A stretch of 42,331 nucleotides of DNA from the IMG/VR virus record IMGVR_UViG_3300031673_000145, positions 1 to 42,331 of that record, one strand, 5' to 3'. Source of the DNA: a virus. The notes beneath the pieces were generated by a model. That model did not search any database. It was not told the DNA's origin and saw only the letters and a program-made list of their open reading frames with translations. Position numbers and translations under genes: made by a program. This document shows positions 26,181-41,111 of this stretch, one piece after another (position 1 is the first letter of the stretch; every line of letters starts with the position of its first letter).

Positions 26181-26999
26181 CTAGTGAATTCCTTGGTTTA
26201 CGAAAATCGCGTCAACAAACGCCTTGGCAGTTGTGGGACTCATTCCCCGCTGAACCGTCAAGTCAACCGCCTGGGCATACGAGATGCGACCAACCGATTT
26301 GTGCGTCTGAACTTTGGCATTGCCCTCAAGCGACTGGGGCACGATGGTGCCGCCCATGCCGCCTGCAGATAGGGCCTTGTCCTCATCCTCTTCGTCAGAG
26401 AAGGGATCGGACTTCAACACGGGTCCACAGGTGCAACATCCGCCTTTGCAGACTGCGTCCCATGGGTGGAGGCACCATTTCTGGCCTCCAAGAGACTTCA
26501 CAATCTCTGCCCAAGTGTTGGTGTTGACGGGTGATGCAGTGATCGCCACGTCTTGTAACCAGCATTTGGCAATCGTCCGTCCCTCTCGTCGGAGGACTTT
26601 GCCTTGAATCGAGAATCCTACTTTGCGGCTAGAATCAGATTGAGCGAGGACATTGATATGCTCCCACCAATGCTCTGATCGCTCTTTCCCCTTATATAGG
26701 AAGCCTTTGAGCCAGAGACCCTTTGCGGTCATGCGGCATTCAGTAGGCTCGCCGACCTTATTCTCGGGTCCATCCTTGTGGTCATCGTTGATGTAGCCCT
26801 TCTTGAGGAAGTAGGCGTAGTCGATGCCGTTCTGCTGGACAACCTCATTCTGGAGGTCTCGATGCGAGGTGGAGGCAATACCTTGAATCCAACGCTTGCC
26901 GTCCGAGCCCTCGGATTTCTCAATACGCTCCACGGGCATGAAGAAGTGGAAATCATCTCCAGTCCCCAGTAGGTCGTTGTTTGCGTCTTCGAGCTTCAT
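26181..26999 (-). CDS. Prohead protease with added cysteine cluster (272 aa)
   Basis: HK97-type capsid maturation serine protease (peptidase U35 group), which cleaves scaffold and head proteins after assembly. Visible features: 'IQGIASTSHRDLQNEVVQQ' (N-terminal strand), 'GYINDDHKDGPENKVGEPTE' with the catalytic His (about 74), and 'SRKVGFSIQG' with the catalytic Ser (about 130), then 'VAITASPVN'. I use the ATG at 26999 rather than TTG at 27002, because it overlaps the stop of a short leader frame. After the catalytic core there is a cysteine group (WCLHPWDAVCKGGCCTC) not usual in this family and an acidic stretch, then a helical C-terminal domain ('QAVDLTVQRGMSPTTAKAF'). Confidence 0.85.
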   Translation of the reverse strand: MKLEDANNDLLGTGDDFHFFMPVERIEKSEGSDGKRWIQGIASTSHRDLQNEVVQQNGIDYAYFLKKGYINDDHKDGPENKVGEPTECRMTAKGLWLKGFLYKGKERSEHWWEHINVLAQSDSSRKVGFSIQGKVLRREGRTIAKCWLQDVAITASPVNTNTWAEIVKSLGGQKWCLHPWDAVCKGGCCTCGPVLKSDPFSDEEDEDKALSAGGMGGTIVPQSLEGNAKVQTHKSVGRISYAQAVDLTVQRGMSPTTAKAFVDAIFVNQGIH

Positions 27000-27031
27000 C
27001 AAAAAGAGAATGGTGGCGTTTGGGCCAACAT
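26999..27031 (-). CDS. Possible 10-codon leader peptide coupled to the protease
   Basis: ATG at 27031 follows AAAGGGAGG directly and encodes MLAQTPPFSF, ending TGA whose last A is the A of the protease ATG (TTTTGATGAAG). The protease ATG itself has no ribosome site nearby, so re-initiation from this frame would explain its translation. Spacing of the ribosome site is tight. The alternative is that translation begins at a non-standard codon upstream in the protease frame. Confidence 0.35.
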   Translation of the reverse strand: MLAQTPPFSF

Positions 27032-27142: not shown

Positions 27143-27358
27143 CTACTTGTCGAGGTAGAGCCGTGGACCTGGAACAGCGGCTGGAGACTCTGATTTGATC
27201 AACGGCAGAAGCACCTCCATATTGCACTTCTTGCAGACCGCATAGGTCTTGTTCGCCTTTATGATCAACACCTTGGCCCGAACCTTCTCCACTCCGTCCT
27301 GGGACTTCATGATGACCTCGGAGCAGTCACAGACGAGTACTGATTCTGGGTTGGTCAA
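27143..27358 (-). CDS. Small cysteine-pair protein ending in LYL motif (71 aa)
   Basis: Unrecognised. Two cysteine pairs, CDC near residues 10-12 and CKKC near 42-45, suggest a single zinc site. The C-terminus 'PGPRLYLDK' matches short segments in two other genes of the block (for example 'PAPELYLEK' in the 403-residue protein and 'GPELYLE' in the Pro-rich protein). The start is TTG at 27358, overlapping the previous gene's TGA, with weak ribosome site, so coupled translation is likely. It is the last gene of the portal-to-protease block. Confidence 0.5.
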   Translation of the reverse strand: MTNPESVLVCDCSEVIMKSQDGVEKVRAKVLIIKANKTYAVCKKCNMEVLLPLIKSESPAAVPGPRLYLDK

Positions 27359-30087
27359 ATGGATTGCCCCAACATGTCATCCAGAAAAGCTCTCATAGAC
27401 TTGGTGAATGGTATCCCGGCTGCGCGAAACGACTCACGGAGCCGCTTGCGGGTCATTGGAGGAACTGATCCAGGACCCTTTTGGACATAGTGCTTGAACG
27501 CCTCTGCGAACAGTTCCTCAGCGTTGGTCGCTGCGTAGTCGGAGACGTACTCACGGTCTACCCACCCATCACCATGCTCGCCCTCTATCAATTCTTTGAG
27601 GTGCTTTTTCGCGCCCGCTGTGGAGCGGCCTTCGTAGTATCCTGGGAGATTGTTGGCGAGGTATGCGTACACAGGCTGCAGCTCATCAGACGCCTCAGCC
27701 GCTGCTTTCGCCCTAGCTTTGTCCTTGTCGGTCCAATCCTCCAGTGCACCATTGTCACCCGACATCTGGAACATAGTTGGTTTGACGAAATCGTTGATGA
27801 AGTCATCAACATGCTCAGGTGTCACCCTGGTTCGATTAGCGTCAGCGTCTTCCGCCCACGCCGCGCGCGCATTGCTCTCCATGAGCTTGTAGTAGATCCG
27901 ATGGCCAATCTCGTGAACGAGTGTGCCCTGACTCTCTGACTGACCCATTGGGAGAAGACTGAGCATGTCCTCACTGGGTCTGTAGAAGCCTGCAACCATG
28001 TCAGTTCCAGCTAGGTCACCACCAGTCTGAAGATCTTGGGGAAGATCCTTATTGTACTGGCTGTGTACTTGTACAGTGAGACCTTCCAGTGCCTTCTCAA
28101 TGCCAAGCTCCTCAAATTTGTCAGCCACACGACCAAACTGCCTGACCGTCCTATCAACAGTTTCTCTGCTGTACTCACTGTCCATGCCTCTGCCATGCAC
28201 AACGAAGTTGACGCCACGAACTTGAGCTGTAGCAGTTGGGGGATTCCGCTCTAGCTTCTCAGCAGCTACGCCTGCAATGTATCGCTCAGCCACGTCCAGT
28301 GCTGCCTTCACTTTGCGCTGCGTCCTGACTAGCCCCTTATCTCCCCCGCTCTGCATGGAAGCGGCGTTTGGGTGGTAGTCGTCCGGTCCAGTAGACAAGG
28401 CAGCATTGCGGGTCCAAGACGTAGGGAACATTGTGTGGCTCTCGTGGCCGATTCCCCAGAACGCTGATTTGACGGATTTCTGAGTCAGCTCGTGGTCACC
28501 AGGTTTGAGCATATGCTCCATTCCCCAGCGCGAGAGATTCTGTGTGAAGGTCCTGAACGCCTCACGCGCTTCCTCAAATTGTGCCTCGAACTTCTTCTTG
28601 AACGCTGCTTTTTCATCATCAGATGCGTTCCAACTAGGCGCAGCCTTGTCGATTGCGCGGTACATCTTGCTCATCTTGCGCATGTCGCCACGCCACTTAT
28701 TGACCTGCGCTAATGACAAATCACCAAACAGGTCAACGTCCTCTTTCTTGGTGCGCGTCTTCTTCGGCTTGTCATCGCCGGGATACTCGTATTGGTAGTT
28801 GCCTGGTGCCCCGGTGCGCTTGGTGTATTTGTGTCCAGCACTTTTGGAAATAGGCGCATTCAAAAATGACAGTACACGCTCCACTCCATCCGCTTGCTTG
28901 GGGGCGTGTCGCTGGAACGCATCACGGTCTTCCCCCAGCATCGCAGTGAAAGCTTCTGCAAACGCCTCACTCGGGTCGTCCTGCCCATACATGCTGGCGG
29001 ACGGTGTGTCCGCGCCCCACCAATCATCGTGTGTGAGATCTACCTGTGCGTCCGCTGACACCTCTTCAGCAGCGTGTCCCAGCTCGTGCACTAGCGTGCG
29101 CACGTTTACGTGATCAGGGTTTCCGATTTCAATTTTCTTAGTCGTCGGATTGTAGCTGGCTGTGGCGTGACTACCTGGTGGCTGCTTCTTGTGGACAATT
29201 CCATTGACCAACCCAAGCTTGACCAACTTGGCCAGCTCAGGGTGCTTTTGTGTGAGTCCGCCAAGCATATGGCCAATGTTCTCTAGGCCAGCTTCAACCT
29301 TCACACCAGTTGGGATTGCGCCCTCAGCGACACTACTGCTGTCGTATCGTGCGAAGTCTTGCCCATTGAGCGCACGTTTCTCAGATGCATCCCATCGCTG
29401 CTTTGCTTGCTCCTGGTTGCCTGTGCGCTCCTCCTCCTTAATTCTTTGGCGAAGAGATTCTGCATCATCTGCGGAGAATCCAAACTTCTGCATGTAGGAA
29501 GCCCACGCAGCGGGCTCAGTGTCAGATGCCACGTCACGGTACATCTGAACTTGATCGTCTGTGACGCCCTTGGCCTTCAGTTGAGATGCGAAATCACCAT
29601 CGTAGTGGTAGGTGTAGTTTCCTGGTGAACCTTCACGCCGACCAGACCCTGTGTAGGGTTTTGATTTCATGATGTTGGTGAAGTTGGACCACTGTGTGTC
29701 CGACGCCCAACCTGGACGCACTTGTGCACTCAGATGCTTCTGAATCTGTGGGCGCACCATTTGGTATGCGTCGTCTGAAAGCACAGCGGAGCCAACGTAG
29801 TCCTTCATGTCAGCGACGTAGGGACACTGGCTTGGGAAGACACTCTTCTCAATGGCTTCAGCGAGTGGCAAGCACCAGCTCTTTGCAACATCGTGTCGAT
29901 ACTCGTAAACGCTGCAGCAGGACTTCCCGCTTTTCTCAACGCTGAGATGTTGGCACCGAAGTTCCGGCACAAGCACCTGCCCCTTATCCATGCGCACGGA
30001 CGCATAGCAACAGAGACCGCAATCCACGCAGAGCGATTCTAGATCGCCCTTGGATAAGCCAAGCAGGTGTTTGGGCAGCTTACTCAC
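27355..30087 (-). CDS. Tandem zinc metallopeptidase-like cargo protein with YkgJ-like cysteine cluster (910 aa)
   Basis: Read from sequence: residues 16-90 contain 'ESLCVDCGLCC' with further cysteines (45, 57, 58, 72, 88), resembling the YkgJ-type metal-cluster domain. Two units follow, each with the shared PGNY motif and then a zinc-peptidase motif: motif at 145-162 and HELGH at 334-338 with 'SEAFAEAF' downstream; motif at 420-435 and HEIGH at 725-729 with 'EELFAEAF' downstream. HExxH with a later Glu is a gluzincin-like signature. The gene starts at GTG 30087, just after the previous stop. A protease delivered with the genome is inferred. The enzyme call rests on short motifs; I cannot verify activity. 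Confidence 0.65.
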   Translation of the reverse strand: MSKLPKHLLGLSKGDLESLCVDCGLCCYASVRMDKGQVLVPELRCQHLSVEKSGKSCCSVYEYRHDVAKSWCLPLAEAIEKSVFPSQCPYVADMKDYVGSAVLSDDAYQMVRPQIQKHLSAQVRPGWASDTQWSNFTNIMKSKPYTGSGRREGSPGNYTYHYDGDFASQLKAKGVTDDQVQMYRDVASDTEPAAWASYMQKFGFSADDAESLRQRIKEEERTGNQEQAKQRWDASEKRALNGQDFARYDSSSVAEGAIPTGVKVEAGLENIGHMLGGLTQKHPELAKLVKLGLVNGIVHKKQPPGSHATASYNPTTKKIEIGNPDHVNVRTLVHELGHAAEEVSADAQVDLTHDDWWGADTPSASMYGQDDPSEAFAEAFTAMLGEDRDAFQRHAPKQADGVERVLSFLNAPISKSAGHKYTKRTGAPGNYQYEYPGDDKPKKTRTKKEDVDLFGDLSLAQVNKWRGDMRKMSKMYRAIDKAAPSWNASDDEKAAFKKKFEAQFEEAREAFRTFTQNLSRWGMEHMLKPGDHELTQKSVKSAFWGIGHESHTMFPTSWTRNAALSTGPDDYHPNAASMQSGGDKGLVRTQRKVKAALDVAERYIAGVAAEKLERNPPTATAQVRGVNFVVHGRGMDSEYSRETVDRTVRQFGRVADKFEELGIEKALEGLTVQVHSQYNKDLPQDLQTGGDLAGTDMVAGFYRPSEDMLSLLPMGQSESQGTLVHEIGHRIYYKLMESNARAAWAEDADANRTRVTPEHVDDFINDFVKPTMFQMSGDNGALEDWTDKDKARAKAAAEASDELQPVYAYLANNLPGYYEGRSTAGAKKHLKELIEGEHGDGWVDREYVSDYAATNAEELFAEAFKHYVQKGPGSVPPMTRKRLRESFRAAGIPFTKSMRAFLDDMLGQSI

Positions 30088-30090
30088 ACG

Positions 30091-30390
30091 TCAATCATCG
30101 CCGCCGAATGCCGAGTCGTCTAGTGGTTGAGGGCCTGCGCCCGTGAGATTCACTTCTTCAGACTCCCAATCTTTCCGGTTGGCCTTGAAGCCTGCGTCTA
30201 GCATCTCGGTCAGCTCGTCGGAACTAATCGAGTTCTTCTTCTCAGGTTCGCCTCCGTCAGGTGGTTCTCCGGGTGGCGCGGTGCCCCCAGGCGGAGCTGC
30301 ATCCATTGGAGGATTTACTGTCTCCTCGACAGGAGCTGCATCCATTGGAGGGTTCACAGGGGTTTCAGGTGGGTCGTATTCTGGTGGCAT
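30091..30390 (-). CDS. Proline-rich acidic protein with VNPPM repeats (99 aa)
   Basis: Unrecognised. Residues 1-50 contain two copies of 'VNPPMDAAP' separated by acidic residues. The same 'VNPPM' words occur four times in the large Pro-rich protein at 36072-37601, so they share a motif. The C-terminal half is acidic ('DELTEMLDAGFKANRKDWES'), ending GGDD. It has a good ribosome site (AAAGGA) 8 bases before ATG and 50 bases of leader. Possibly a linker or partner of the larger Pro-rich protein. Confidence 0.55.
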   Translation of the reverse strand: MPPEYDPPETPVNPPMDAAPVEETVNPPMDAAPPGGTAPPGEPPDGGEPEKKNSISSDELTEMLDAGFKANRKDWESEEVNLTGAGPQPLDDSAFGGDD

Positions 30391-30425
30391 TGTTCTATCC
30401 TTTCACCCTATAGGTCTAATTACAC

Positions 30426-30442
30426 AGAATCCCGAGGATTCT
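30426..30442. repeat. Short inverted repeat AGAATCC / GGATTCT at a gene end
   Basis: Seven-base arms, 3-base loop, starting inside the TAG stop of the Zeta-like gene. No T-run follows, so it is a weak terminator at best. Half-site AGAATC resembles the octamer near the two promoters. The 50-base gap (30391-30440) otherwise holds only the next ribosome site. Confidence 0.3.
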
Positions 30443-31544
30443 ACTTAACGTACCCTTGATATGACTCGTAAAGATCCGCTCGGTGGATCTGGGGACCAGG
30501 GGGATCGCCCTCCATGCCTTTGGAGAACATGAGGCGTGCACCCTCCGACTCGCCGCCCATGTTGTCGTACAGACGAGCCTCGCCTACCTCAGGCATGGCT
30601 GAGACGAGGTGGAAGTTCGTGGGGATCGCGCCATAGGCTTCGTCCAGGATCTCCATGGGAACCCAGCGCCCAGAGCTTTTCGCGCGCTTTGCAGCACGTC
30701 TTTTTCCCTCGTTCACGTCAATATGGGGCATGACCAACTTGATGTTGTAGCCCGCTTTGGCCAGACGCCTGACCTGCTCTTGCATCTTCTCCAGGTTTTT
30801 CCCAGTGCCGTCGAGGAGCACATTCTTCCTGTCATTGATGGCTTGGTCACGCACCATACCAGCCACGTCACTGGACTCCTCGTGTGCCATAAACGCAGCA
30901 TTCAATGCACGGTCGCCACCAGGTGCACGCTCGGAGCCATCCTCATTGGAATTGGTTCCCTCCTGGTATTCTGGAATCTTCGCCTTTACGGCATCAGGGT
31001 CTACTGAAACAAAATTGTTGAAATCCATGCCCTTTGTAGTCGAACTCTTGCCCGAACCTGGCCCGCCCATCATGATCACAGCCGTAGGCTTCAGGTGCAT
31101 AGGGACAGGTTCACCCTTGGCCAGGAAGCTATCCGCCCACTCCTTGTGTAGCTTGCTTCTCTCCTCTGTATAGGCCCCATCAGCGTTTTTGTGCGCTTTG
31201 TCAGTTCGTTCAGGCAGGTGGTCGAGTTTCGCCTTGAAACCCATGGCCAGAAGCTCTTGCCAAAGCTCCTCGCCATTGACTGCTTCCAGCGCTTTCTCTT
31301 CGACCTTCTTGGGTCCCCTTGGACCTTTGTTGCCGTAGGTGTATTTGTAATTTCCTGGGGTACCTGTTCGCTCGCCTGGCCCCGTGTAGGGCTTGGACTT
31401 CATGATGCGGAACAAGTCGAGCGCACCGCGCTCCTCAGGCGTCATTCCCTTCATCAGATGGAACAAACCCTCAGCACCAAACTCCTGTGGAGGTCGGTTG
31501 GGCGTCATCAAGACAAAGAGATTCTTCTCGATCAGATTACTCAC
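30441..31544 (-). CDS. Zeta-toxin-like P-loop kinase with PGNY motif (367 aa)
   Basis: Residues 53-70 are the shared motif (PYTGPGERTGTPGNYKYTYG). Residues about 150-330 form a Zeta/AAA kinase: Walker A GGPGSGKS (160-167), 'SVDPDAVKAKIPEY' (D182, D184, the substrate-binding Asp of Zeta), 'NVLLDGTGKNLEKM' (Walker-B-like) and 'RRAAKRAKSSGRW' basic helix. Zeta toxins phosphorylate UDP-N-acetylglucosamine and block cell-wall synthesis. No epsilon antitoxin gene is adjacent, which favours a virion-carried effector rather than a plasmid-type toxin-antitoxin pair. Starts GTG overlapping the upstream TAG. The C-terminal 40 residues (from 330) are not part of the kinase core. Which substrate it uses is unknown. 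Confidence 0.72.
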   Translation of the reverse strand: MSNLIEKNLFVLMTPNRPPQEFGAEGLFHLMKGMTPEERGALDLFRIMKSKPYTGPGERTGTPGNYKYTYGNKGPRGPKKVEEKALEAVNGEELWQELLAMGFKAKLDHLPERTDKAHKNADGAYTEERSKLHKEWADSFLAKGEPVPMHLKPTAVIMMGGPGSGKSSTTKGMDFNNFVSVDPDAVKAKIPEYQEGTNSNEDGSERAPGGDRALNAAFMAHEESSDVAGMVRDQAINDRKNVLLDGTGKNLEKMQEQVRRLAKAGYNIKLVMPHIDVNEGKRRAAKRAKSSGRWVPMEILDEAYGAIPTNFHLVSAMPEVGEARLYDNMGGESEGARLMFSKGMEGDPPGPQIHRADLYESYQGYVK

Positions 31545-34294
31545 TATATCGGCTCCCCTGGCTCAGCACGTTCGTGGATAGGGAACGAGTGCACCCAATC
31601 GCTGAATTCTTGCTCGTCGTTGGTTCGGCCCATCAAGTCCATGGACACAGCTGGAATTGGTGGCATTGCAGGTGGCAGCGCCTGCGTGTCCATGCCGATG
31701 AGACCTTGCTCCTCTGCGTTGGACTGCAGAGCCTCAACCACCAGTGGGTCGATGAGCACCTGCTCGATGAGCTGCATCACACGCATCACGTCTTGCTCCA
31801 TGCGTAAGTCGTGTCCCCACTCGAGAGCTGTGACGAGCAGCGCGTTGGACTTCGCAGTCTCCCAAGAGACATCGTAGTTCGTGAGTGCTCGCTGAATCTC
31901 CCTCGAGAAGCAGAGCGTTGCATGGTATGTCTGCATCCCTATGAGTGAGATGCCTTGGGTGTCGAGGACTCGTGCGAGGTAGTGTGGTCCGATTCGTCGG
32001 TACAAGCCATCTTCGAGTTTCCCATCCCGCTTCTGCAGTGGGATGGAGAACATCGGTTCGTCGGGCTGCTTCTGCGCCATCAATGCGCTGATGGCAGCTT
32101 GGACCTTGTGGTCAGCATAAATACGCCGAGTGCCAATCGTGATGAGTGGCCCCTCCACCAAGACGTTCATCGGACACACCGTGCTCAGCTCGGTTGCACG
32201 GAAGCGCCCTTGGTCGAGAAGTGCCAGCGCCAGACCAGTGATTTGGTCCTTGATGCGGTCACTGGTGTTGAACATGGTGTTGTAACCCTGGCGAAGCACA
32301 GGCATGCGGACATCAGTGAGTGCGTTCTGCTGATTGATCTGCAGCTTCGGCATGCTGCGGATGTCTGCGTCGATGTACGAGTACCGGAAGTCGCCAGCGG
32401 CTGAGCGCCATCGAGCTGCCCACAGGTTCTGTGGGTCGTAGCGGTTGTACGCTTGGTTCCATTCGACCTGCTCTACTTCGCAGTCTGGGCAGCGAGACAA
32501 CTTCTGGCCACCAGGAGTGAAGTACTCCGGTGCCACGTCCATCGTAGGTTCCGATGGATGGATTTGCGCATCGCCGTAGTAGTTGGACTGGTCTGGGTGT
32601 CCGGTTGGTGCGTTGGTGTATCGGACGTAGTTCCCCGCTTGGTCCTGGTAGTAGTATCGTGGGAGATTCTCGTCACCATCTTGCTGCAGGTAGTTGTGTG
32701 CTGGATCGACGTTCTTGTCCTTGGTGAGGATTTGCATCGCCTTCCACGCAAGGTCCTCGTATGCGTAGGCGAGCAAAGCTTTCTCGATCAGCGCTTCTTG
32801 GACGAAGGATTTGTCGAGCATGTCCAGAAGCAACTCAGAAATGCGATCAGCGACTTTCTGTTGGCTAGCTACTGGTTCATTCGCAACATCATCAAGAGCA
32901 GCACGGGCAGCTTGCTTGGCAGCCTCGAGCTTCTGCTTGTTCTTGATATGCTCGGGACCAAGACGGTCAATGATGTCCTCGGTCTGCGAGTGCCACTTGT
33001 CGAAGTCAAATGATGAGCTGGTGGGCTCTCGCACAGAGCTTGGGTCTGCCGTGATGTCGGCACGACTCACGTCACCACCAGACTCACTTGCCACCGTTCC
33101 CGATGCTGTTCCTGAGATTTCGTCTTTGAACTTGTCGGCTTCCCGCTTGATTGCCCAAGTGAGCTTGCTGGCTGCGAACCCTGCGAGAGGCACACCGGTT
33201 CCTGGGTCCCACTCGTCAATAGCTTGAGAAATTGCTGTGTGTGCAGGAGAACCTGGTTCCGGTGTGACGACGATTGGCTTGCCATCGACACGCTCATCGC
33301 TATCGGGGAACCTGTCCCCGATCATGCGACCCATCCACGACTCTTTCTCGTCCTTGGTGGTGCCGAAGAAGCCTCCACCCATCTTGACCTGCTTACGTGC
33401 CTGCTCCTCCATGACTGGCCAATAGTCTCTGGCCAAGTCTGAGATCATCTTCTCCTTTTCGGCGGGAGTGACATCCAGCTCGCGTTTGTTCTTCTCGGTG
33501 TTGTATGTCCAAGAGTGTGACCCAGTCTCGATGTCCTGGGTTATGCCTGATCCGCCTTCATCCTTTGAGCCCATGGTGGACAGAGGCTTTTCTGGGAATG
33601 GAATCGTGGGCTCGCCAACGTTGGAAATCTTCGCGTCGATGCGCTCTTTGGCGAACTCGAGAGACTTGGCATACCCCAGCTCAGCGCGGTCTTGGTCAGA
33701 CTTCTGTTGGTCCGTTGGAACGGATGGGTGGTATTGAACTTTCCACCTGCGATTCTTGTCCTGTGACGGAATCAGCTCACCCGATGCGGTGTCAACCTTT
33801 CCAACGGAAGGAGTGACCATGAGCCAAGGGTTGCCATTGGTGTCGAAGCGAACGTGCGTGTTCGATGCCTCGATCATGTACTTGTCGTACTGGCCTTGGT
33901 TCTTGAATCCGTTCTTGTCCTTTGTGCCGAAGACTTCCCCGTTGGCGTCTTTCAGTTGGATGTAGGATTTGCCTTTGACCTCAGTGACCGTGACTGTGAG
34001 GTCTTCATCCAGCGCAGGAATGCGCACGGTAGCGGGCTCGCCTGGGTTGGCTTTCGCCTTGGACAACGCTGTGTCGAAAGTCTTGTCCGCATCGATACCC
34101 TTGACCGCGTTCTGCTTGCGATCTGCGAACTCCTCTGCAGCATCCTTATCGACAGTCTGCCAACCCGATGGCTGTTTGTCGTAGGTGTAGTTCCAGCGCG
34201 TGCCGCTCCACTCGCGTTTGGTGTACGCACCTCCGCGCGGAGCCCCAGTTGGTGCAGCAGCTTTCGCTAGGTCTATTTCGGCGTCAAGAAGCAT
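31544..34294 (-). CDS. Large cargo-type protein with sigma-like and possible TopIB-like regions (916 aa)
   Basis: Starts with a degenerate copy of the shared motif (residues 23-38, AYTKREWSGTRWNYTY). Residues about 280-385 resemble sigma-70 region 2 ('DLARDYWPVMEEQARK', then 'AIDEWDPGTGVPLAGFAA' and 'WAIKREADKFKD'). Residues about 625-800 have features of a topoisomerase IB/tyrosine-recombinase core ('FRYSYIDADIRSMPKL', 'ALALLDQGRFRATEL', 'LITIGTRRIYADHKVQAAI', 'YLARVLDTQGISL'), but I cannot place a catalytic Tyr. 'CPDC' lies at 602-605. GGAGG six bases before the ATG is a strong ribosome site. These fold calls are tentative. A simpler view is a large internal head protein with unrelated helices. 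Confidence 0.45.
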   Translation of the reverse strand: MLLDAEIDLAKAAAPTGAPRGGAYTKREWSGTRWNYTYDKQPSGWQTVDKDAAEEFADRKQNAVKGIDADKTFDTALSKAKANPGEPATVRIPALDEDLTVTVTEVKGKSYIQLKDANGEVFGTKDKNGFKNQGQYDKYMIEASNTHVRFDTNGNPWLMVTPSVGKVDTASGELIPSQDKNRRWKVQYHPSVPTDQQKSDQDRAELGYAKSLEFAKERIDAKISNVGEPTIPFPEKPLSTMGSKDEGGSGITQDIETGSHSWTYNTEKNKRELDVTPAEKEKMISDLARDYWPVMEEQARKQVKMGGGFFGTTKDEKESWMGRMIGDRFPDSDERVDGKPIVVTPEPGSPAHTAISQAIDEWDPGTGVPLAGFAASKLTWAIKREADKFKDEISGTASGTVASESGGDVSRADITADPSSVREPTSSSFDFDKWHSQTEDIIDRLGPEHIKNKQKLEAAKQAARAALDDVANEPVASQQKVADRISELLLDMLDKSFVQEALIEKALLAYAYEDLAWKAMQILTKDKNVDPAHNYLQQDGDENLPRYYYQDQAGNYVRYTNAPTGHPDQSNYYGDAQIHPSEPTMDVAPEYFTPGGQKLSRCPDCEVEQVEWNQAYNRYDPQNLWAARWRSAAGDFRYSYIDADIRSMPKLQINQQNALTDVRMPVLRQGYNTMFNTSDRIKDQITGLALALLDQGRFRATELSTVCPMNVLVEGPLITIGTRRIYADHKVQAAISALMAQKQPDEPMFSIPLQKRDGKLEDGLYRRIGPHYLARVLDTQGISLIGMQTYHATLCFSREIQRALTNYDVSWETAKSNALLVTALEWGHDLRMEQDVMRVMQLIEQVLIDPLVVEALQSNAEEQGLIGMDTQALPPAMPPIPAVSMDLMGRTNDEQEFSDWVHSFPIHERAEPGEPI

Positions 34295-34306
34295 CAGATT
34301 CCTCCG

Positions 34307-35923
34307 CTAGTTTGTAGGCGCGGACTCCTCCTGGTCGTTTGGTTTCTGCGAGAAATCCGCCTCGAACCAGTTCATCAATGACTGAGACGGTGATACCTCT
34401 TCGGAGTAGCCAGCCTCGGGTGACGGGCTGCTGCTTGCGGATGGTTGTGAGAAGTCCGACGACCCAGGTTGAGAGGGGACCGGCAAACTTGGCGATGGAG
34501 CTGAGACGGGCATCGCGGGCTCGACGCCCAATAGGTCCCTTTGGTCGAGAAGAAAGCCGATTATCTCCGCCCTCGCTATCTCCGGTGGAAGTCCCTCGAA
34601 GGTGTATCCGTCTCCCCATATTTTGCCTGCAATCTGCATCAGCTCTGGATCTTTGGCTGAGCCAATCGTGCGCAGCATCGCCTGCACACCCTCGAATGTC
34701 TCCATGTCATGCGGATCGATGGGAGGCATCATCGGCATCATCCCCGGCATGACGGGTTGTTGAACCATTGGTGGTCCTTCAGGGGCTGGTGGAACCATGT
34801 CCTGCTCCTCAGGAAGGTAGCCACTCTTGGTCAGCGACTTACTCATGCGAAACTCGAGCGTGCATTTGCAGTTGCCGTGCGCTTGTGGCCCATCGATCTG
34901 CATGCCGTTCATCGCAGTGAAGGTGTCGTCGATGTCAATTTCAACGCCATCTAGACGATCACAGACGCCAGTCTTGCATTTGTCTGTGCCTCCACGCACC
35001 CACTTCTTGAGTGGCCTAGCCGCGTCTTCTTTGTCACCGAACTTTGCTTTGACCTTGCCCCAGAGCTTGCCCAGCTGGTCGAGCAGTCCCTTCTGCACAG
35101 AGTTCTCACAGTGTGGGAACGCCTTGTTGATGTCTCGCCACGCAGCCGCAAAACTCTCAATCTCACCCTTGGTCATGGATCGGTCTTCGCCTGGCTGGAT
35201 GGGAGACTCAGGCATCTTCCCTCTGGGGGACCAAACATCGTCCCAAGACTTATTGACGAACATGCGCTTGAACGAAGTGATGTCCGTGCTCGTCATGGAG
35301 CCGAAGAACTTTGGATTGCTGAAGCTCATGAGGTAGGCCGCTTTGGCTTCCCGTGCGCTCTCAAAGCCGACCATGACTTTGTCTTCGTCGTAGCGCTTGA
35401 AGTTGGGCTTCTTCATCTGGTGGACGACGAAAACCTCCTCCGACTTCGCGTTTGGTCCCACGTAAACATCGACCTGCTCCCCATCAGCGCCATCTGTCCT
35501 GCAGATGTAGCCGTAGGGATAGTTCATCTTGGTGGAGCCCTTCTCACCTGTAGCATCGTCCGTCCAATGACGAAGATCGCCTTTGTCGTGCTCAATGCTG
35601 ATGTCGAGACCTTGGAACTTGATCTTGCGGACGACCTTGTAGTTCTTGCGGATGCCCCAACGGATGGACTTGGTTGCCTCCATCCTGTTGAGCTTGGAGT
35701 AGTACTCGATGTCCTCAGTGAGGTGGTCCATCGCAATTTCAGTTGCGAGGTCTTGGTCCTTGGTGTGCTCCAGCTCTACCGCAATTCCTTCAGCCAACGC
35801 ATCCGCGTCGAAGTCATCAGGGTTCTTTTTGTCCGCAAGTCCGCCTGGCAGTTGATCCTTGTGTGACTTGGTTACGTCATCGCAGGGTCCGCCCGTCGAG
35901 CAGCTGTTGCAGCAGGTCTTCAT
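34307..35923 (-). CDS. Polyvalent head-region protein: DUF5661, pyrophosphatase-like, MuF-like (538 aa)
   Basis: Modular protein. The N-terminus is Cys-rich (CCNSCSTGGPC). Residues about 41-80 ('GIAVELEHTKDQDLATEIAM', 'HLTEDIEYYSKL') match DUF5661. Residues about 95-225 ('DISIEHDKGDLRHWTDDATG', 'MNYPYGYICRTDGADGEQVD', 'VYVGPNAKSEEVFVVHQM') match the inorganic-pyrophosphatase-like domain known in phage polyvalent proteins. Residues about 310-360 ('CKTGVCDRLDGVEIDIDD', 'GPQAHGNCKCTLEF') resemble the metal-binding end of MuF-like head morphogenesis proteins. The C-terminal 160 residues are Pro/Ser/Met-rich and low-complexity. The ATG overlaps the small gene before it (ATGA). Such multidomain proteins are packed in capsids and delivered with DNA in known cases. 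Confidence 0.7.
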   Translation of the reverse strand: MKTCCNSCSTGGPCDDVTKSHKDQLPGGLADKKNPDDFDADALAEGIAVELEHTKDQDLATEIAMDHLTEDIEYYSKLNRMEATKSIRWGIRKNYKVVRKIKFQGLDISIEHDKGDLRHWTDDATGEKGSTKMNYPYGYICRTDGADGEQVDVYVGPNAKSEEVFVVHQMKKPNFKRYDEDKVMVGFESAREAKAAYLMSFSNPKFFGSMTSTDITSFKRMFVNKSWDDVWSPRGKMPESPIQPGEDRSMTKGEIESFAAAWRDINKAFPHCENSVQKGLLDQLGKLWGKVKAKFGDKEDAARPLKKWVRGGTDKCKTGVCDRLDGVEIDIDDTFTAMNGMQIDGPQAHGNCKCTLEFRMSKSLTKSGYLPEEQDMVPPAPEGPPMVQQPVMPGMMPMMPPIDPHDMETFEGVQAMLRTIGSAKDPELMQIAGKIWGDGYTFEGLPPEIARAEIIGFLLDQRDLLGVEPAMPVSAPSPSLPVPSQPGSSDFSQPSASSSPSPEAGYSEEVSPSQSLMNWFEADFSQKPNDQEESAPTN

Positions 35924-36072
35924 GTTGGTTCGGATTGTTCCTCGGTTGTTGGCTTCTTGTCATCAGACCCTGGGGACAATTCACCATCGAGTTCCTTGTC
36001 GTAGCGAGCTTCTGCTTCTTCAAGGTCTTCGATGGTGATGTCTTTGGGATTCGCTTTACCCCAACCGCCCAT
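35920..36072 (-). CDS. Small acidic protein between two head genes (50 aa)
   Basis: Begins MGGWGKANPKDITIEDLEEA and ends acidic and hydrophilic (EEQSEPT). The ATG (36072-36070) shares bases with the previous TGA stop, and its own TGA overlaps the next gene's ATG, so it is coupled on both sides. The middle is a predicted acidic helix (LEEAEARYDKELDGEL). Nothing else covers the 146 bases between the two larger genes. No function recognised. Confidence 0.6.
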   Translation of the reverse strand: MGGWGKANPKDITIEDLEEAEARYDKELDGELSPGSDDKKPTTEEQSEPT

Positions 36073-37601
36073 CAGCCCCACCCAAGAGTCGCAGCCAAAG
36101 ACTTCTGCGCGGCCTCTTCAGGCTCCGTCTTCTGGTTCCCTGCGTGTGTGGGTGGTGACTCTTTGCCAAACTGCTTCTTTGGGCTCGGCGCACCACTGGG
36201 TTCCTGCTCCGACGATGATCCAGGATTGGGAGCCGAAGGAGCTTCCATACCAGCCATGAACTGCTGAAGCAGTGTCATCATCTCAGGGTTCTGCTGAACC
36301 TCTGGGGACTGCATGAAGTCCTCGAGAGAACCTCCGCCGCCCATGCCCGCGCCCATTTCGGACGCAGCACCTGCGCCAGGAGGTCGTTCGCTCATCCCAG
36401 GCTTGGGACCTTGGCGCTCGAAGCCCTCAGGCTGTGGTGGTGCCTGAGGTTTACCTTGATCCATCTCGCCACCAGACGCGCCCTGCTGGCCCATGGGAGC
36501 TTGCCCTTGTGGCGTGCCCATTGGAGGTTGGCCCATGTTGGGCTGCATCTGAGCTGCCATCGGAGGCATGGGTGGTGGTTTGGGTGCTGCGAGTACGGGA
36601 GGCTGCCCTGGTCCGCCTGGAGGTGGTCCGCCCATGCCAGGCATGGGAGGGTTGACCGGTGGAGGAGGAGGTGGAGCACCTGCTTCCATACCAGGCATGG
36701 GAGGGTTGACTGGAGGCGCACCGGGAGGAGGTGGTCCGCCCGCACCTGGAGGTCCTTGAGGAGGCGCACCGGGAGGAGGTGGTCCGCCCGCACCCTCCAT
36801 GGGTGGGTTGACTTGAGGTGCGCCAGGAGGTGGAGGCGCACCGCCGCCCGCCTGTGGAGGAGCTGGTGGTTTGCCTGGGCCAACGGGCGGCATCTCAGCC
36901 TGCTGGCCAGCTGGACCCTGTCCAAACTTCTCGCCGCCACGCTCCATTGGACTTTGTGCGTCCTTGCCCATCTCGCCGTGGGCTTGGGCAGCCTGTTGGT
37001 GCTGCTGCGCCTGCTGCGGATCTGCGCCCGCGCCTGCCTGCTCGTGGTGCATCTGAGCCATCTGGTGGTCAGGTGCTTGGAAGTTGGCGTGCTGGGGCGC
37101 GAATGGATCAGGCATGATCGGCATGCCTTCTGGCGTCATTGCCATTGGCTGCTGTTGCTGCTGGGGAGCTGGTGGCGTCCCTGGCATCGCGCCCGCACCT
37201 GGAACTCCTCCGGGAGCGCCTTGGGCTGGGACACCTGGAGCAGATCCCTGTGGGCCTGCTGGTGGCATCCCTGGCATTGGCTGCGGTTGCTCAGGACGAA
37301 GTGGGACTTGGGGAAGTCCCATCGCCTTGGCAAATGCGCCATCGAGCGCTCGCCGCCGAATGCTTGGGTCCGGTGGAGCAGGCATCGACTTGGACATTGG
37401 TGTCTCCAAGTAGAGTTCTGGTCCTGAGAGGTTGGGGCGCAGATTCGGGATCTGTCCATGGAACGCACCACGTCGAGTTGGTGGCGTGCCTGAACGGGAG
37501 TGCGAATCGTGGGACACACCGATGGACTTCTCCACGTGCTCCTCGATCTTTGGTGGACTCCAGTTCAGTGGTCTGATGCTGCCGTTGTTTGGGTGGTTCA
37601 T
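36072..37601 (-). CDS. Proline-rich repeat protein of head block (509 aa)
   Basis: Mostly low-complexity: Pro, Gly, Met, Gln and Ala make up most of residues 95-470. PPPPGAPP- and VNPPMPGM-type repeats occur, with exact DNA repeats of 35 bases (36712-36746 and 36760-36794) and 20 bases (36637-36656 and 36691-36710). The N-terminal 95 residues include 'GPELYLETPMSKSMPAPP' and a short helix 'IRRRALDGAFAKAMG'. The end is 'AQKSLAATLGWG'. There are no enzyme motifs. Likely a flexible filler or scaffold-like internal head protein. Long proline-rich sequences in phage heads are seen elsewhere, but I name no family. The start is ATG two bases after the previous TAA. Confidence 0.6.
   Translation of the reverse strand: MNHPNNGSIRPLNWSPPKIEEHVEKSIGVSHDSHSRSGTPPTRRGAFHGQIPNLRPNLSGPELYLETPMSKSMPAPPDPSIRRRALDGAFAKAMGLPQVPLRPEQPQPMPGMPPAGPQGSAPGVPAQGAPGGVPGAGAMPGTPPAPQQQQQPMAMTPEGMPIMPDPFAPQHANFQAPDHQMAQMHHEQAGAGADPQQAQQHQQAAQAHGEMGKDAQSPMERGGEKFGQGPAGQQAEMPPVGPGKPPAPPQAGGGAPPPPGAPQVNPPMEGAGGPPPPGAPPQGPPGAGGPPPPGAPPVNPPMPGMEAGAPPPPPPVNPPMPGMGGPPPGGPGQPPVLAAPKPPPMPPMAAQMQPNMGQPPMGTPQGQAPMGQQGASGGEMDQGKPQAPPQPEGFERQGPKPGMSERPPGAGAASEMGAGMGGGGSLEDFMQSPEVQQNPEMMTLLQQFMAGMEAPSAPNPGSSSEQEPSGAPSPKKQFGKESPPTHAGNQKTEPEEAAQKSLAATLGWG
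36637..36710. repeat. Direct repeats of 20 bases inside the Pro-rich gene
   Basis: Identical 20-base units at 36637-36656 and 36691-36710 (54-base period, 18 residues) encode the VNPPMPGM words. They could expand or shrink by slippage or recombination. Confidence 0.7.
36712..36794. repeat. Direct repeats of 35 bases inside the Pro-rich gene
   Basis: Identical 35-base units at 36712-36746 and 36760-36794 (48-base period, 16 residues) encode the GAGGPPPPGAPP words. Exact identity at the DNA level suggests recent duplication. Confidence 0.75.
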
Positions 37602-37603
37602 GT

Positions 37604-38077
37604 TTATGGTACTCCGTCGCGGTACTTGGATCGTCCGTCCACAGAGCCGCCGCCTTGGCCTGCGTTCCAGTTCTCCTCTTCAAGAAGTTGGCTTTCAACC
37701 ATGCTCTTGATCCGAGCCTTCTCAGATGCGGAGAATTGTGTCATGAGGTCCGCCTGCATTGGCTCCATCTCTCGAAACCGCTCAGGGAACACAACAGTGA
37801 TGAGTGCTTTGTCCACAGGGAGCAAGGCGTTCGGGTAGGCCATCTTGTGCACCGCGTCGAGCACCATGTTTTTGGCCCACTCAAAATCGAGCGTACCATC
37901 CGGGTTTCGTCGGATGACGCTCATCATATGAGTGTTCGGTCGGTCAGCACCCTGGGTCTTGTAGTTAGACTCATGCGTGATGTTTGTGCGGTAGGAGGGG
38001 TTGGGTTGGGCCTTCGCAGCCTTCGCAACGTCCGCAGACTGCATATGAAGTGGGACTCTTGATCCGTTGTAGCTCAT
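37604..38077 (-). CDS. Helical head-block protein of unknown function (157 aa)
   Basis: Not recognised. The first 45 residues are polar and likely disordered. Residues 46-150 are helical and hydrophobic at intervals ('FEWAKNMVLDAVHKMAYPNA', 'LITVVFPERFREMEPMQADL', 'ARIKSMVESQLLEEENW'). No PGNY motif and no cysteines, which sets it apart from its neighbours. It begins close to the upstream stop and ends two bases before the Pro-rich gene ATG. Its regular helices fit a small structural or chaperone-like head protein. Confidence 0.55.
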   Translation of the reverse strand: MSYNGSRVPLHMQSADVAKAAKAQPNPSYRTNITHESNYKTQGADRPNTHMMSVIRRNPDGTLDFEWAKNMVLDAVHKMAYPNALLPVDKALITVVFPERFREMEPMQADLMTQFSASEKARIKSMVESQLLEEENWNAGQGGGSVDGRSKYRDGVP

Positions 38078-38079
38078 GT

Positions 38080-39291
38080 CTATTCCTTCCCCGTAAAGTA
38101 CCTACCAGCCGCACGAGCTGCACCTGCAATCTCGCCTGGAACTTGTTTGTATGAAGATGCTTGTGTGAGTGGCTTGAAGTAGTTGCCGATAGCACTGAGC
38201 GCACCGGACTGCTTCTTGGACTCTTTGTCCTTCTTGTCCTGTGCGTCCTTGTCGTCTTTTTTGGACGAGCCACTAACGGTACTGGCTGCCCCTGGAGCAC
38301 TCCGAACAGCTGCGGCACCCCCACCACCTGGAGCAGAAGCGTAGCCAGCGCCTTGCGCCTGGCCTGCGCTGTAGCCAGCTCCTGCACCGCTTGGTCCACT
38401 CGAACTTGAGCCTGAGGAGTTGCTACCGCTGCCCCCAGACTCACCTTCGCCGTACTCGTATTTGTAGCTGCCAGGTGAACCAGTGCGCTTGGAGTACTTG
38501 GCCTTCTCCACGTCGTCACCAGGGAGTGTGTCCAGCAGATCCTTCATCTCGTTTTCTAGACTGGTCTGCCCTTGGCCATGAGCTTTGCCAGCTCCGCCGC
38601 CGATGAACTGGCCCATGGCTGGCTCACGGTTTGGGTTGCCGCCTTTGCTGAGGTCGAGGAAAAGGAATGGGTCCAGCGACTTCTTGGAGTTCCTAGCTTC
38701 TAGGGCCTCTTTGACCAACTCCTTTGGAGCTGTGACATCGTGCTCCCAGCGAAGTTCTTCCATGGTGTCGTCGATATTCTCACCACTGCTGTGGTAGTCG
38801 CTCATGTATGGGCTGTCGAGGGCATCAGTGACCTTTGCGCGTACTTTGTCTGCGTCAGCTTCAGATGCAATCCACGGGTGACCTTCGTATCCCTCGAACG
38901 CTGCAGGCTTCACCAGTCCATCATCGAATGCGTCACCAATCTGCTTGGTGTCAGCTGCGATTCCTTGCGACTCGAGTTCTTCTGAGATCGTAAGGAAGTC
39001 CTTGTTGTGGACATCCTTAATCTTGTTGAGACCATCCGCAATTTCTTGCGACGTAGCTGTCTCGTTGAACTCGAACCCAAGTTGCTCCTCTGGAATGAAG
39101 GGCTTCTGGTCGGGACCAGCTCGGTCGTAGTAGTAGCGGTAATTTCCTGGACCACCAGTTCGCTTGGTGTACTTGGCTTTCTCCAAGTACAGCTCAGGTG
39201 CTGGTGGTCCACTCTTCAAGATGAGTGGTTGGGCTTCCGGCACGGAGAGATAGAGCCGGGGAGCCGGAAGCTCTTGTATGTATAATTTCAT
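38080..39291 (-). CDS. Cargo-type protein with two PGNY motifs and LYL motifs (403 aa)
   Basis: The frame is open to 39411, but ATG at 39291 has AGGAG seven bases upstream and begins right after the preceding stop, so I start there. Residues 8-16 and 29-38 are the LYL motif (PAPRLYLSV, PAPELYLEK). Residues 40-55 are the first PGNY motif, 265-280 the second ('KYSKRTGSPGSYKYEY'). Residues 303-341 are a Gly/Ala/Ser-rich module that is almost the same as one in the upstream 601-residue protein. Between the motifs is a folded-looking helical region (about 75-260, 'IADGLNKIKDVHNKDFLTIS'). The C-terminus is Lys/Asp-rich with a helix 'AIGNYFKPLTQ'. No enzyme motif. Confidence 0.65.
   Translation of the reverse strand: MKLYIQELPAPRLYLSVPEAQPLILKSGPPAPELYLEKAKYTKRTGGPGNYRYYYDRAGPDQKPFIPEEQLGFEFNETATSQEIADGLNKIKDVHNKDFLTISEELESQGIAADTKQIGDAFDDGLVKPAAFEGYEGHPWIASEADADKVRAKVTDALDSPYMSDYHSSGENIDDTMEELRWEHDVTAPKELVKEALEARNSKKSLDPFLFLDLSKGGNPNREPAMGQFIGGGAGKAHGQGQTSLENEMKDLLDTLPGDDVEKAKYSKRTGSPGSYKYEYGEGESGGSGSNSSGSSSSGPSGAGAGYSAGQAQGAGYASAPGGGGAAAVRSAPGAASTVSGSSKKDDKDAQDKKDKESKKQSGALSAIGNYFKPLTQASSYKQVPGEIAGAARAAGRYFTGKE
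38272..38385 (-). repeat. Gly/Ala module, copy in the 403-aa gene
   Basis: Encodes residues 303-340, beginning GAGYSAGQAQGAGYASAPGG and ending SAPGAASTVSG. It matches the copy at 39816-39923 in the neighbouring gene at nearly every residue. Confidence 0.7.
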
Positions 39292-39305
39292 CCCGGTTTC
39301 TCCTG

Positions 39306-41111
39306 TTATCGGTTTCCGAAGCGCATGTCCTGGCGCACAGTGCCAAGAGACTTGGCAGTCGTGCACAGAGGACAATTCTGCGATTTGTAGGTCACCCCGT
39401 GCGCGAAGCACTTGGTGGTGGCTTCATTTGAAGCGCGCATCGCGCTGATGTTCTCCTGCACCTCCATTGACTCACGCACCTGAGGAGCCAGCGAAGTGTA
39501 TTGCGCGGAGTTCTGGGCAGTAGCCGACCGACGAATTCCGTCAGGGTCGTAGCCTTGGATGCCCGCGCGCAAGTAGAACGGAATCGCCATCGACCGTGAG
39601 GTGATAGCTTTCTTGACGCCGTGCGGACAGTTGCCTGATTGACAAGCACTGCACGAACCAGAGCCGTGGGTCATGTAGTCGTCCTTGTCAAAAGACTTGC
39701 CTACGCCACCACCAGCTGGCGCACCACCTGAAGATCCTGTGGTGTTCTTTGGCGCAGCTGAGGGAGCGGATGATGCTGGAGCTGCGGAAGGGGCAGGCTT
39801 ACTTGCGCCCGCGCCTGCGATAGTGCTCACAGCGCCTGGTGCGCTATGCACTGCAGCTGCGCCACCACCACCTGGTGCCGAAGCGTAGCCAGCACCTTGA
39901 GACATGCCAGAGCTGTAGCCAGCGCCAAGTGCGCCTTTTTCAGCTTCGTCTACCTCTTCCTCTTCCTCTTCCACTTCTTCTTCGACACCGTCGTCCATAG
40001 TGTCTGCGTCACCGCCGAAGCCTTTGCTCAGCCAACCATCAAAAATGCTTTTCATCGACTTGGAGCTGTACACCAGGTCGAGGTGCTCTTGTTCGCTACC
40101 AGCGTACCCAGGGTCGTTGGGGAGCATCGGAGTTGTTGTGTTGCCGCTAGGTTTCTTTCGCACGCCAGCTGACACCAATATTGCTATTGCAGCGTCATGC
40201 TTATCCTCTATGCCTGCGGCTGCGCTTCCATGGTCTGCGACCATCTGCTCTACCTTAGCTTTAGGCGTGCTTGGTGCGTAGTACATAGCGATGTCATCAG
40301 CCATTGCCTGCATTTTTGGTGAGAGGTTCGCACCACCACCACCAGCACTGCCACCACCACTATCACCATACTCGTATTTGTAGTTGCCTGGTCCACCAGT
40401 TCTCTTGGTGTACTTGGATTTATTCAGGGCCACTGCGCGTTCGTATTCTGATTGCATACTATTATTCCCTTGCGATTTTCGCGCATCAGCGCGTTTCGAT
40501 GCTGCATCATGGAGCGCCACCATTTGGGAGTGGCCTTCTAGCTTCTTGAAGTCACCTCGATCAGATGCGCCACGCATCTCTTTGAAGTGCGCGTTGCTGC
40601 TCGCTTCATGATCAGCTGCCGTAAAGCCGTTGAACTTGCCCTCAAATCTGGACATGGTGCCATCAGTGAGTCCGCCGTCTGTATCGAACTTGGTGCCCTC
40701 AGAAGGACTCGTATCCGTACTGGACTTCAGCTTTTCCAGCTGCGCCTTGTCACGCTTATCTTTGTTCGCAGCCTGTGACTGCATTTCAGCGTGGTACTGA
40801 GCCTTCTCACGCTTCTCCTGATCTGCGTGTGGATTTGTGCTGGTGGCGCTTTCAGCTTCATCGCGCGTCAAGTAACGATCTTGGCCCCTGTCGTAGTACG
40901 TGCCTCCGTCGTAACTGTTGTCGTAGTAAAGCTCACGACCACTTGGGAACGTGAAAGGACCTTCCATGCCGTCTAATGCCCGATCCTCATTGCCGTGCGT
41001 GGCACCGGAATTGGCGTACTCATATTTGTAGTTGCCCGGACCACCAGTTCTTTTGGTGTACTTGGCCTTGCACAATTCGACAGCGCGCTGATATTCAGAT
41101 CCCCAATTCAT
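39306..41111 (-). CDS. Cargo-type protein with duplicated N-terminal unit and zinc clusters (601 aa)
   Basis: Two copies of an opening unit are present: residues 5-36 ('SEYQRAVELCKAKYTKRTGG' and onward) and 221-252 ('SEYERAVALNKSKYTKRTGG' and onward), each holding the PGNY motif at 16-31 and 232-247. The second unit begins with an internal Met, so this looks like a fused gene duplication. Residues about 370-395 are an acidic run, 397-432 the Gly/Ala module shared with the 403-residue protein. Near the end are two cysteine sets, CSACQSGNCPHG (487-498) and CFAHGVTYKSQNCPLC (568-583), likely zinc sites. The start is one base after the portal stop. No enzymatic motif; an internal virion protein is inferred. 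Confidence 0.65.
   Translation of the reverse strand: MNWGSEYQRAVELCKAKYTKRTGGPGNYKYEYANSGATHGNEDRALDGMEGPFTFPSGRELYYDNSYDGGTYYDRGQDRYLTRDEAESATSTNPHADQEKREKAQYHAEMQSQAANKDKRDKAQLEKLKSSTDTSPSEGTKFDTDGGLTDGTMSRFEGKFNGFTAADHEASSNAHFKEMRGASDRGDFKKLEGHSQMVALHDAASKRADARKSQGNNSMQSEYERAVALNKSKYTKRTGGPGNYKYEYGDSGGGSAGGGGANLSPKMQAMADDIAMYYAPSTPKAKVEQMVADHGSAAAGIEDKHDAAIAILVSAGVRKKPSGNTTTPMLPNDPGYAGSEQEHLDLVYSSKSMKSIFDGWLSKGFGGDADTMDDGVEEEVEEEEEEVDEAEKGALGAGYSSGMSQGAGYASAPGGGGAAAVHSAPGAVSTIAGAGASKPAPSAAPASSAPSAAPKNTTGSSGGAPAGGGVGKSFDKDDYMTHGSGSCSACQSGNCPHGVKKAITSRSMAIPFYLRAGIQGYDPDGIRRSATAQNSAQYTSLAPQVRESMEVQENISAMRASNEATTKCFAHGVTYKSQNCPLCTTAKSLGTVRQDMRFGNR
39816..39923 (-). repeat. Gly/Ala module, copy in the 601-aa gene
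   Basis: Encodes residues 397-432 (GAGYSSGMSQGAGYASAPGG, ending SAPGAVSTIAG), with near-identity to 38272-38385. Duplicated or exchanged between neighbouring genes. Confidence 0.7.

Follow-up and report, generated by a model that had tools for sequence, protein, structure and literature searches.

Our analysis suggests that many uncultured phages have in common a cut-and-tag system that loads protein cargo into the head. We consider it reasonably probable that the prohead protease frees each cargo cassette from what precedes it and that a small hairpin then serves as the N-terminal tag by which the cassette is loaded or retained in the head. The header would consist of a cleavage site PhixK/[SA] (Phi being L, I, V, M or F; the slash marks the cut) and a small beta-hairpin directly after it.

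The window, that is, the whole stretch of DNA analyzed, is a virus record of 42,331 bases, whose left part contains the tail genes and whose right part the head genes; every one of them lies on the minus strand, as do all the window features given below. Its right end falls within the portal gene, and the partial portal CDS (PF04860; 41113-42312) has neither a hairpin nor a PhixK[SAG] tetrapeptide. Directly downstream of the portal lies the CDS of a 601-aa protein (39306-41111), and the head block further includes those of a 403-aa protein (38080-39291; 443 aa with an upstream GTG start), a 916-aa protein with a TopIB-like domain at the C-terminus (31544-34294), a 367-aa zeta-toxin-type kinase (PF06414; 30441-31544) and a 910-aa zincin metallopeptidase (PF07737-like; 27355-30087), all five predicted to be head cargo. 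The head maturation protease (phrog_1028; 26181-27002) is the predicted cutter of PhixK/[SAG]. The scaffold is encoded at 25089-26171 (its homologue at L051 1929-3014 matches phrog_15087, head scaffolding), and the major head protein (23604-25058) has a predicted N-terminal maturation site LQK/A at 24957-24968.

A preliminary description of this DNA had listed eight stretches of a repeated motif in the five cargo proteins; all of them translate to that motif on the minus strand, seven being strong and one divergent. What it had not foreseen is that each copy stands just after a likely prohead-protease site, since 8/8 copies have PhixK/[SA] 0-11 residues upstream. The 601-aa protein carries LCK/A with the hairpin KYTKRTGGPGNYKYEY (41016-41075) and LNK/S with KYTKRTGGPGNYKYEY (40368-40427), and the 403-aa protein LEK/A with KYTKRTGGPGNYRYYY (39127-39186) and VEK/A with KYSKRTGSPGSYKYEY (38452-38511). 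A long form of the header is found in the kinase (IMK/S and KPYTGPGERTGTPGNYKYTY; 31335-31406) and as the first header of the metallopeptidase (IMK/S and KPYTGSGRREGSPGNYTYHY; 29602-29673), whose second header (ISK/S and AGHKYTKRTGAPGNYQYEY; 28783-28851) lies between two HExxH regions. In the 916-aa protein, the divergent header is made of LAK/A, 11 residues and the hairpin AYTKREWSGTRWNYTY (34181-34270).

The window was re-tested with a profile made from other phages only, with the window left out. Seven copies were recovered at 19.5-41 bits (i-E 7e-7 to 1e-13), no other stretch of the 33 window CDS exceeded 0 bits, and the top score in 20 shuffles of these CDS was 4.1 bits. The eighth copy, that of the 916-aa protein (34181-34228), was missed by this profile; in the distant homologue L112, a copy at the N-terminus, GGKYILRWWKSERWNYKY, is just as divergent and aligns with it, and we therefore take it as a divergent copy and not as a chance match. 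The two proteins are 31% identical over about 300 residues and L112 has a clear Topoisom_I (TopIB) domain, which supports the earlier guess that the 916-aa protein is TopIB-like. Their alignment also revealed a ninth, decayed copy, HNYLQQDGDENLPRYYYQD, at 32642-32698, before the TopIB-like domain, where L112 carries a canonical hairpin. The earlier statement that no tail gene of the window carries the motif, nor its protease, scaffold or capsid protein, is correct and extends to the window portal, although in relatives, unlike in the window, the motif is present within portal and protease reading frames.

Degenerate DNA patterns were used to scan IMG/VR and returned 78 and 99 stretches. In 68 of the 78 stretches of the first scan the residues flanking the searched core, which were outside the search pattern, were conserved too, and the other ten were chance hits. 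An iterated profile search then gave 156 copies in 143 reading frames at 124 loci, window included, with real frames scoring up to 52 bits and reversed frames peaking at about 7 bits. Taken together, the shuffles, the reversed frames and the independent profile rule out chance or composition as the cause of the motif. From 116-118 distinct copies the consensus is [HAS]-K-Y-[IVT]-K-R-[TE]-G-x-P-G-[NH]-Y-x-Y-x-Y, after which many copies have a turn (DPKTG or LPDG, for example); the whole hairpin peptide has about 20 residues, and its Tyr, Arg and Gly positions are nearly invariant across phages. The recurrence of the motif in other phage polyvalent-type proteins, which had been anticipated, was thus found.

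Outside phages the motif is rare. Bacterial genome contigs contained two true members among 23 pattern hits, and in one bacterial phylum the motif was present in 1/395 genomes, this being the member already found; these counts rule out a motif general in bacteria. Hits in Flavobacterium (YEYRTGNPGNYEYNY; loci L086, L087, L089, L090, L092, L097, L098, L100-L104, L106 and L107) were rejected as members: they form a separate conserved family of a 135-137-aa protein with a look-alike motif, for which no phage link was seen. The PDB contained no known structure with the motif, the named isolates of INPHARED gave no convincing tblastn match, and no relatives of the 403-aa protein were found in IMG/VR. 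A text search did not find the motif string in the literature, but this counts for little, as sequence strings of this kind are rarely printed in papers.

The pattern that precedes the hairpins is very probably the prohead-protease site, judging from its distribution in the sequences. The head block of the window contains 67 PhixK[SAG] against 19.5 expected from shuffles (z 11.2). The peak is the scaffold, with 15 against 1.8 expected, and the protease (6 against 1.2) and the capsid protein (5 against 1.1) are enriched as well. Among 502 neighbouring frames of related loci the pattern reached z 23, the most enriched being head maturation proteases and scaffolds, and the preferred form was [VLIMF]-x-K-[S>A>G]. 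All 17 of 17 related capsid proteins have a fixed [LIV]xK/A near residue 20-33. An amphipathic periodicity is disfavoured as the cause, because no comparable excess appears in the window head block with Arg or Glu in place of Lys (other residues in that position gave z of at most 1.9, E being the highest), and because there is no Lys excess in the window tail block and little or none in hairpin-less phage loci and bacterial loci. The maturation cut of HK97 gp5 is experimentally known to fall at K103/S104 (PMC10275583); it reads FNK/S, which is of the PhixK/[SA] form, and the N-terminal domain that is removed has three further PhixK[SA] against 0.76 expected. In the giant phage SPN3US the cut is at AxE/S (PMC10052503), the Phi-x-P1 layout being the same. 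In the study of phage phi12, a K or R at P1 was the only regularity remarked on, and a common site was not recognised (PMC8569155). A prohead protease (phrog_1028 or PF04586) was found in 40 of 50 contigs; in about 10 of the 50 neither of these two families was found, some of these contigs being fragments.

The site and the hairpin are closely coupled also beyond the window. Among 118 distinct copies, PhixK[SA] was present within 20 residues upstream in 61 and downstream in 0, with a background of 7%. In the portal-fused group the site matches are weaker (QK/A, ETK/A), and about a quarter of the hairpins have no K[SAG] in the 20 residues before them; of these, some begin at the N-terminus without a leader and others do not. 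Five of the seven copies within 8 residues of the initiator have no site, as expected if the cut only separates the hairpin from the part that precedes it. On sequence grounds, the processing logic is well supported.

Such a close coupling could also mean that the prohead protease docks on the hairpin, which would mark a weak upstream site for cutting and have no later role, and the copies inside protease reading frames, between the protease and the coiled-coil scaffold, fit with this idea. However, the scaffold and the capsid protein carry many PhixK[SAG] and no hairpin, so the protease does not need it, and hairpins at residue 4-8 without a site (L078, L068, L038) have nothing to be removed before them. 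A structure model of the protease docked on the hairpin was set aside for its low confidence in the relevant part. Altogether, docking as the sole role of the hairpin is in our judgement unlikely.

The proteins that carry the hairpin differ in everything else. When 114 non-redundant carriers were mutually aligned, only the motif was in common, and the mean column identity was 6-8%. Their head-structure domains are portal, MuF and HK97 prohead protease; their effector domains are zeta toxin, RelA/SpoT, ParB, ddrB-ParB, ART-PolyVal, inorganic pyrophosphatase, TopIB, SNF2 helicase, metallopeptidase, LPD1 and DUF5661, which are of kinds known from polyvalent proteins. No tail or lysis family appeared in the Pfam tallies of the carriers. 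In 41 contigs with a recognisable portal, 62/62 copies were on the portal strand, and the nearest copy was within 10 kb of the portal in 27 contigs against 15.6 expected under random placement (maximum of 5000 trials, 27); in large genomes, though, the distance from carrier gene to portal is sometimes long. The concentration in head-cargo neighbourhoods, for which a profile search had been proposed as a check, is supported by strand, by proximity to the portal and by the head and effector domains.

Position within the carriers is also constrained. Of the 156 copies, 80 are within 60 residues of the N-terminus, and none is at a true C-terminus, the shortest tails being cut off by contig ends. 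After a head domain, the hairpin follows at a distance that is mostly 52-74 residues for the portal, 14-18 for MuF and mostly 21-32 for the protease. In L138, for example, the order is MuF (85-195), hairpin (212-232) and zeta toxin (314-484), while in protease reading frames the protease domain is followed by the hairpin, a variable insert and a scaffold-like coiled-coil tail. The earlier proposal of a tag that sends cargo proteins into the capsid thus stands in part: the hairpin is specific to head and cargo proteins and precedes unrelated domains, but to call it a tag on separate cargo genes would be too simple, because exchangeable cassettes are also built into portal, MuF and protease proteins.

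Cassette swapping was followed in sixteen portal-hairpin-X-MuF proteins, each divided into portal, cassette X and constant pre-MuF region, with the hairpin and the beginning of the constant region as the boundaries. Pairwise similarity was detected in 120/120 pairs for the constant region and in 2/120 for the cassette X; for the portal it was detected in 81/120, several of the portals being incomplete. The clearest pair is L042 and L047, with portals 94% identical, near-identical hairpins and unrelated cassettes. The cassette of L032 is a LHEIGH metallopeptidase, those of L046 and L108 are ART-like and ddrB-ParB-like, respectively, with weak Pfam support, and by eye those of L049 and L047 look ART-like and that of L084 ParB-like. 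In addition, L046 (3-2018) has two cassettes in tandem with a hairpin on each, and L071 (5955-8360) has a hairpin without a cassette at the portal-MuF insertion point that it shares with L046. From the swapping, the tandem unit and the empty unit it follows that the hairpin belongs to the cassette as its header. Read from these alignments, the cassette logic is well supported, and L046 and L071 are good natural test cases for cassette exchange. The region between portal and MuF looks like an exchange hot spot for anti-host or anti-defence functions, as in polymorphic toxins.

In the mechanism that we propose, cargo would come in three forms: a separate protein with a short leader, a tandem polyprotein of header-module units (the 601-, 403- and 910-aa proteins), or a cassette inserted in a head protein behind its portal, MuF or protease part. 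The cargo would be enclosed while the procapsid assembles. The HK97-type protease would then cut at PhixK/[SA], digesting the scaffold and trimming the capsid protein, and would sever each cassette from the preceding part. The hairpin, left at or near the new N-terminus, would hold or load the effector in the head until ejection. For the window phage, we infer from this scheme that the headers are cleaved, that the cargo proteins are in the virion and that the hairpin binds some component of the head. Whether the scheme is a general code, in which HK97-type proteases recognise PhixK/[SA] and one retained hairpin tags any exchangeable effector cassette, including those inside portal, MuF and protease-scaffold proteins, we regard as evenly balanced.

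The component that is bound could be the packaged DNA. AlphaFold predicts a beta-hairpin with strands at 18-22 and 25-31 and a short third strand at 38-40 (core pLDDT mostly 82-89), and such a predicted three-stranded sheet, with its basic and aromatic strands, might act as a small DNA-binding element that tethers cargo to the genome for storage and co-ejection. The best matches in the fold search were to the DNA-binding protein Cren7, and Arm-DNA-bind_1 was a weak Pfam match (E 0.16-0.2). However, none of these is significant; kinship with the DNA-binding arm domain of lambda Int was not supported (hhalign probability 0.4%), and the intact empty unit of L071 has no cargo to tether. We think a DNA tether improbable. 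Another possibility is that the hairpin is an ejection leader, in which case the N-terminus produced by cleavage would lead the way into the portal and tail channel or would serve for recognition inside the host. This would agree with the hairpin being always before the cargo, never at a true C-terminus, and with its placement at the N-terminus by the cut, but the targeting and ejection leader of T4 is removed and not kept (PMC9026906), and we hold this reading to be quite improbable. Mere shared descent of a duplicated linker with no common function, as a short, repeated and interdomain motif and the Gly/Ala repeat of the 601- and 403-aa proteins could suggest, is extremely improbable, since Tyr, Arg and Gly are near-invariant across phages with otherwise unrelated carriers and the hairpin is kept while the cassettes turn over.

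Loading of protein cargo by a tag with subsequent processing, as in our preferred scheme, has a known precedent in the capsid targeting sequence (CTS) of T4, which is present in IPI-III and Alt, directs entry into the prohead, is cleaved by gp21 and precedes later ejection (PMC9026906). The likeness lies in a short N-terminal element common to different internal proteins together with a Phi-x-P1 prohead-protease site, although the window carriers are read as internal head proteins from their gene context. There are several differences: P1 is Lys here and Glu in T4; the CTS is upstream of the cut and is removed, whereas the hairpin is downstream and would stay on the cargo; and the hairpin, unlike the CTS, is also found inside portal, MuF and protease proteins. 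With HK97 the system has in common a related protease (gp4, Peptidase_S78; TIGR01543 / PF04586 / phrog_1028) and the same form of site, but no processing of effector cassettes at a site of the K103/S104 form is known for HK97.

Phage effectors fused to MuF or portal are already known (PMC5512222, PMC3482391, in the portions drawn on here). In the same portions, the polyvalent and MuF effectors (Iyer et al. 2017; Zhang et al. 2012) have the same effector domains, namely zeta toxin, RelA/SpoT, ART, ParB, InPase and metallopeptidase, and the same head gene neighbourhoods. Those portions describe neither a common header peptide nor a prohead-protease site before the effector, both of which are present here, and neither a shared header nor prohead-protease processing before MuF or portal effectors was found described in the literature covered, which was mostly open. 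As no such description was found in these sources, we rate the cut-and-tag header as a variant of the capsid-targeting and MuF-effector systems, of which the header and the processing site are the new part. A further parallel is offered by polymorphic toxins, whose pre-toxin domains (e.g. PT-VENN) are also short, conserved and placed between a constant part for delivery and a toxin that varies; according to the part of PMC3482391 considered, they are thought to serve in processing. Here, in contrast, delivery would be by the phage head, and no sequence relation was seen.

If the general code were true, phages would have their own equivalent of polymorphic toxin systems, in which processing and loading follow a defined code, and this code would be testable for protein-cargo loading in phages other than T4. 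One short profile would then find head-delivered effectors in uncultured phages, small unknown proteins included, and their mature ends could be predicted from PhixK/[SA]. The code could also offer a handle for placing chosen proteins in phage heads.

Some minor observations complete the description. A 32-residue Gly/Ala-rich stretch, GAGYS.G..QGAGYASAPGGGGAAAV.SAPGA, is found in both the 601-aa (39831-39926) and the 403-aa (38287-38382) protein, which makes them partial paralogues even outside the hairpins. A peptide [AG]P[ER]LYL[ES] is found at 39241-39264 and 39178-39201 in the 403-aa protein and at 37401-37424 in a Pro-rich 509-aa protein, and its copies adjoin other PhixK[SAG] sites. At 34307-35923 the window encodes a protein with InPase and DUF5661 domains, a weak C-terminal MuF remnant and no hairpin; it has 7 PhixK[SAG] against 2.3 expected, and is likely a processed head cargo of another type. 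Two protease frames have an in-frame stop in the profile match, TAG in G036 (L137; contig 36171-36671) and TAA in G002 (L010; contig 24273-24806), for which recoding, frameshift or error are possible. Finally, phrog_1028 also matches the capsid protein from the predicted cut on (24828-24968 in the window, and similarly in other contigs), as if this profile had been built partly from natural protease-capsid fusions.
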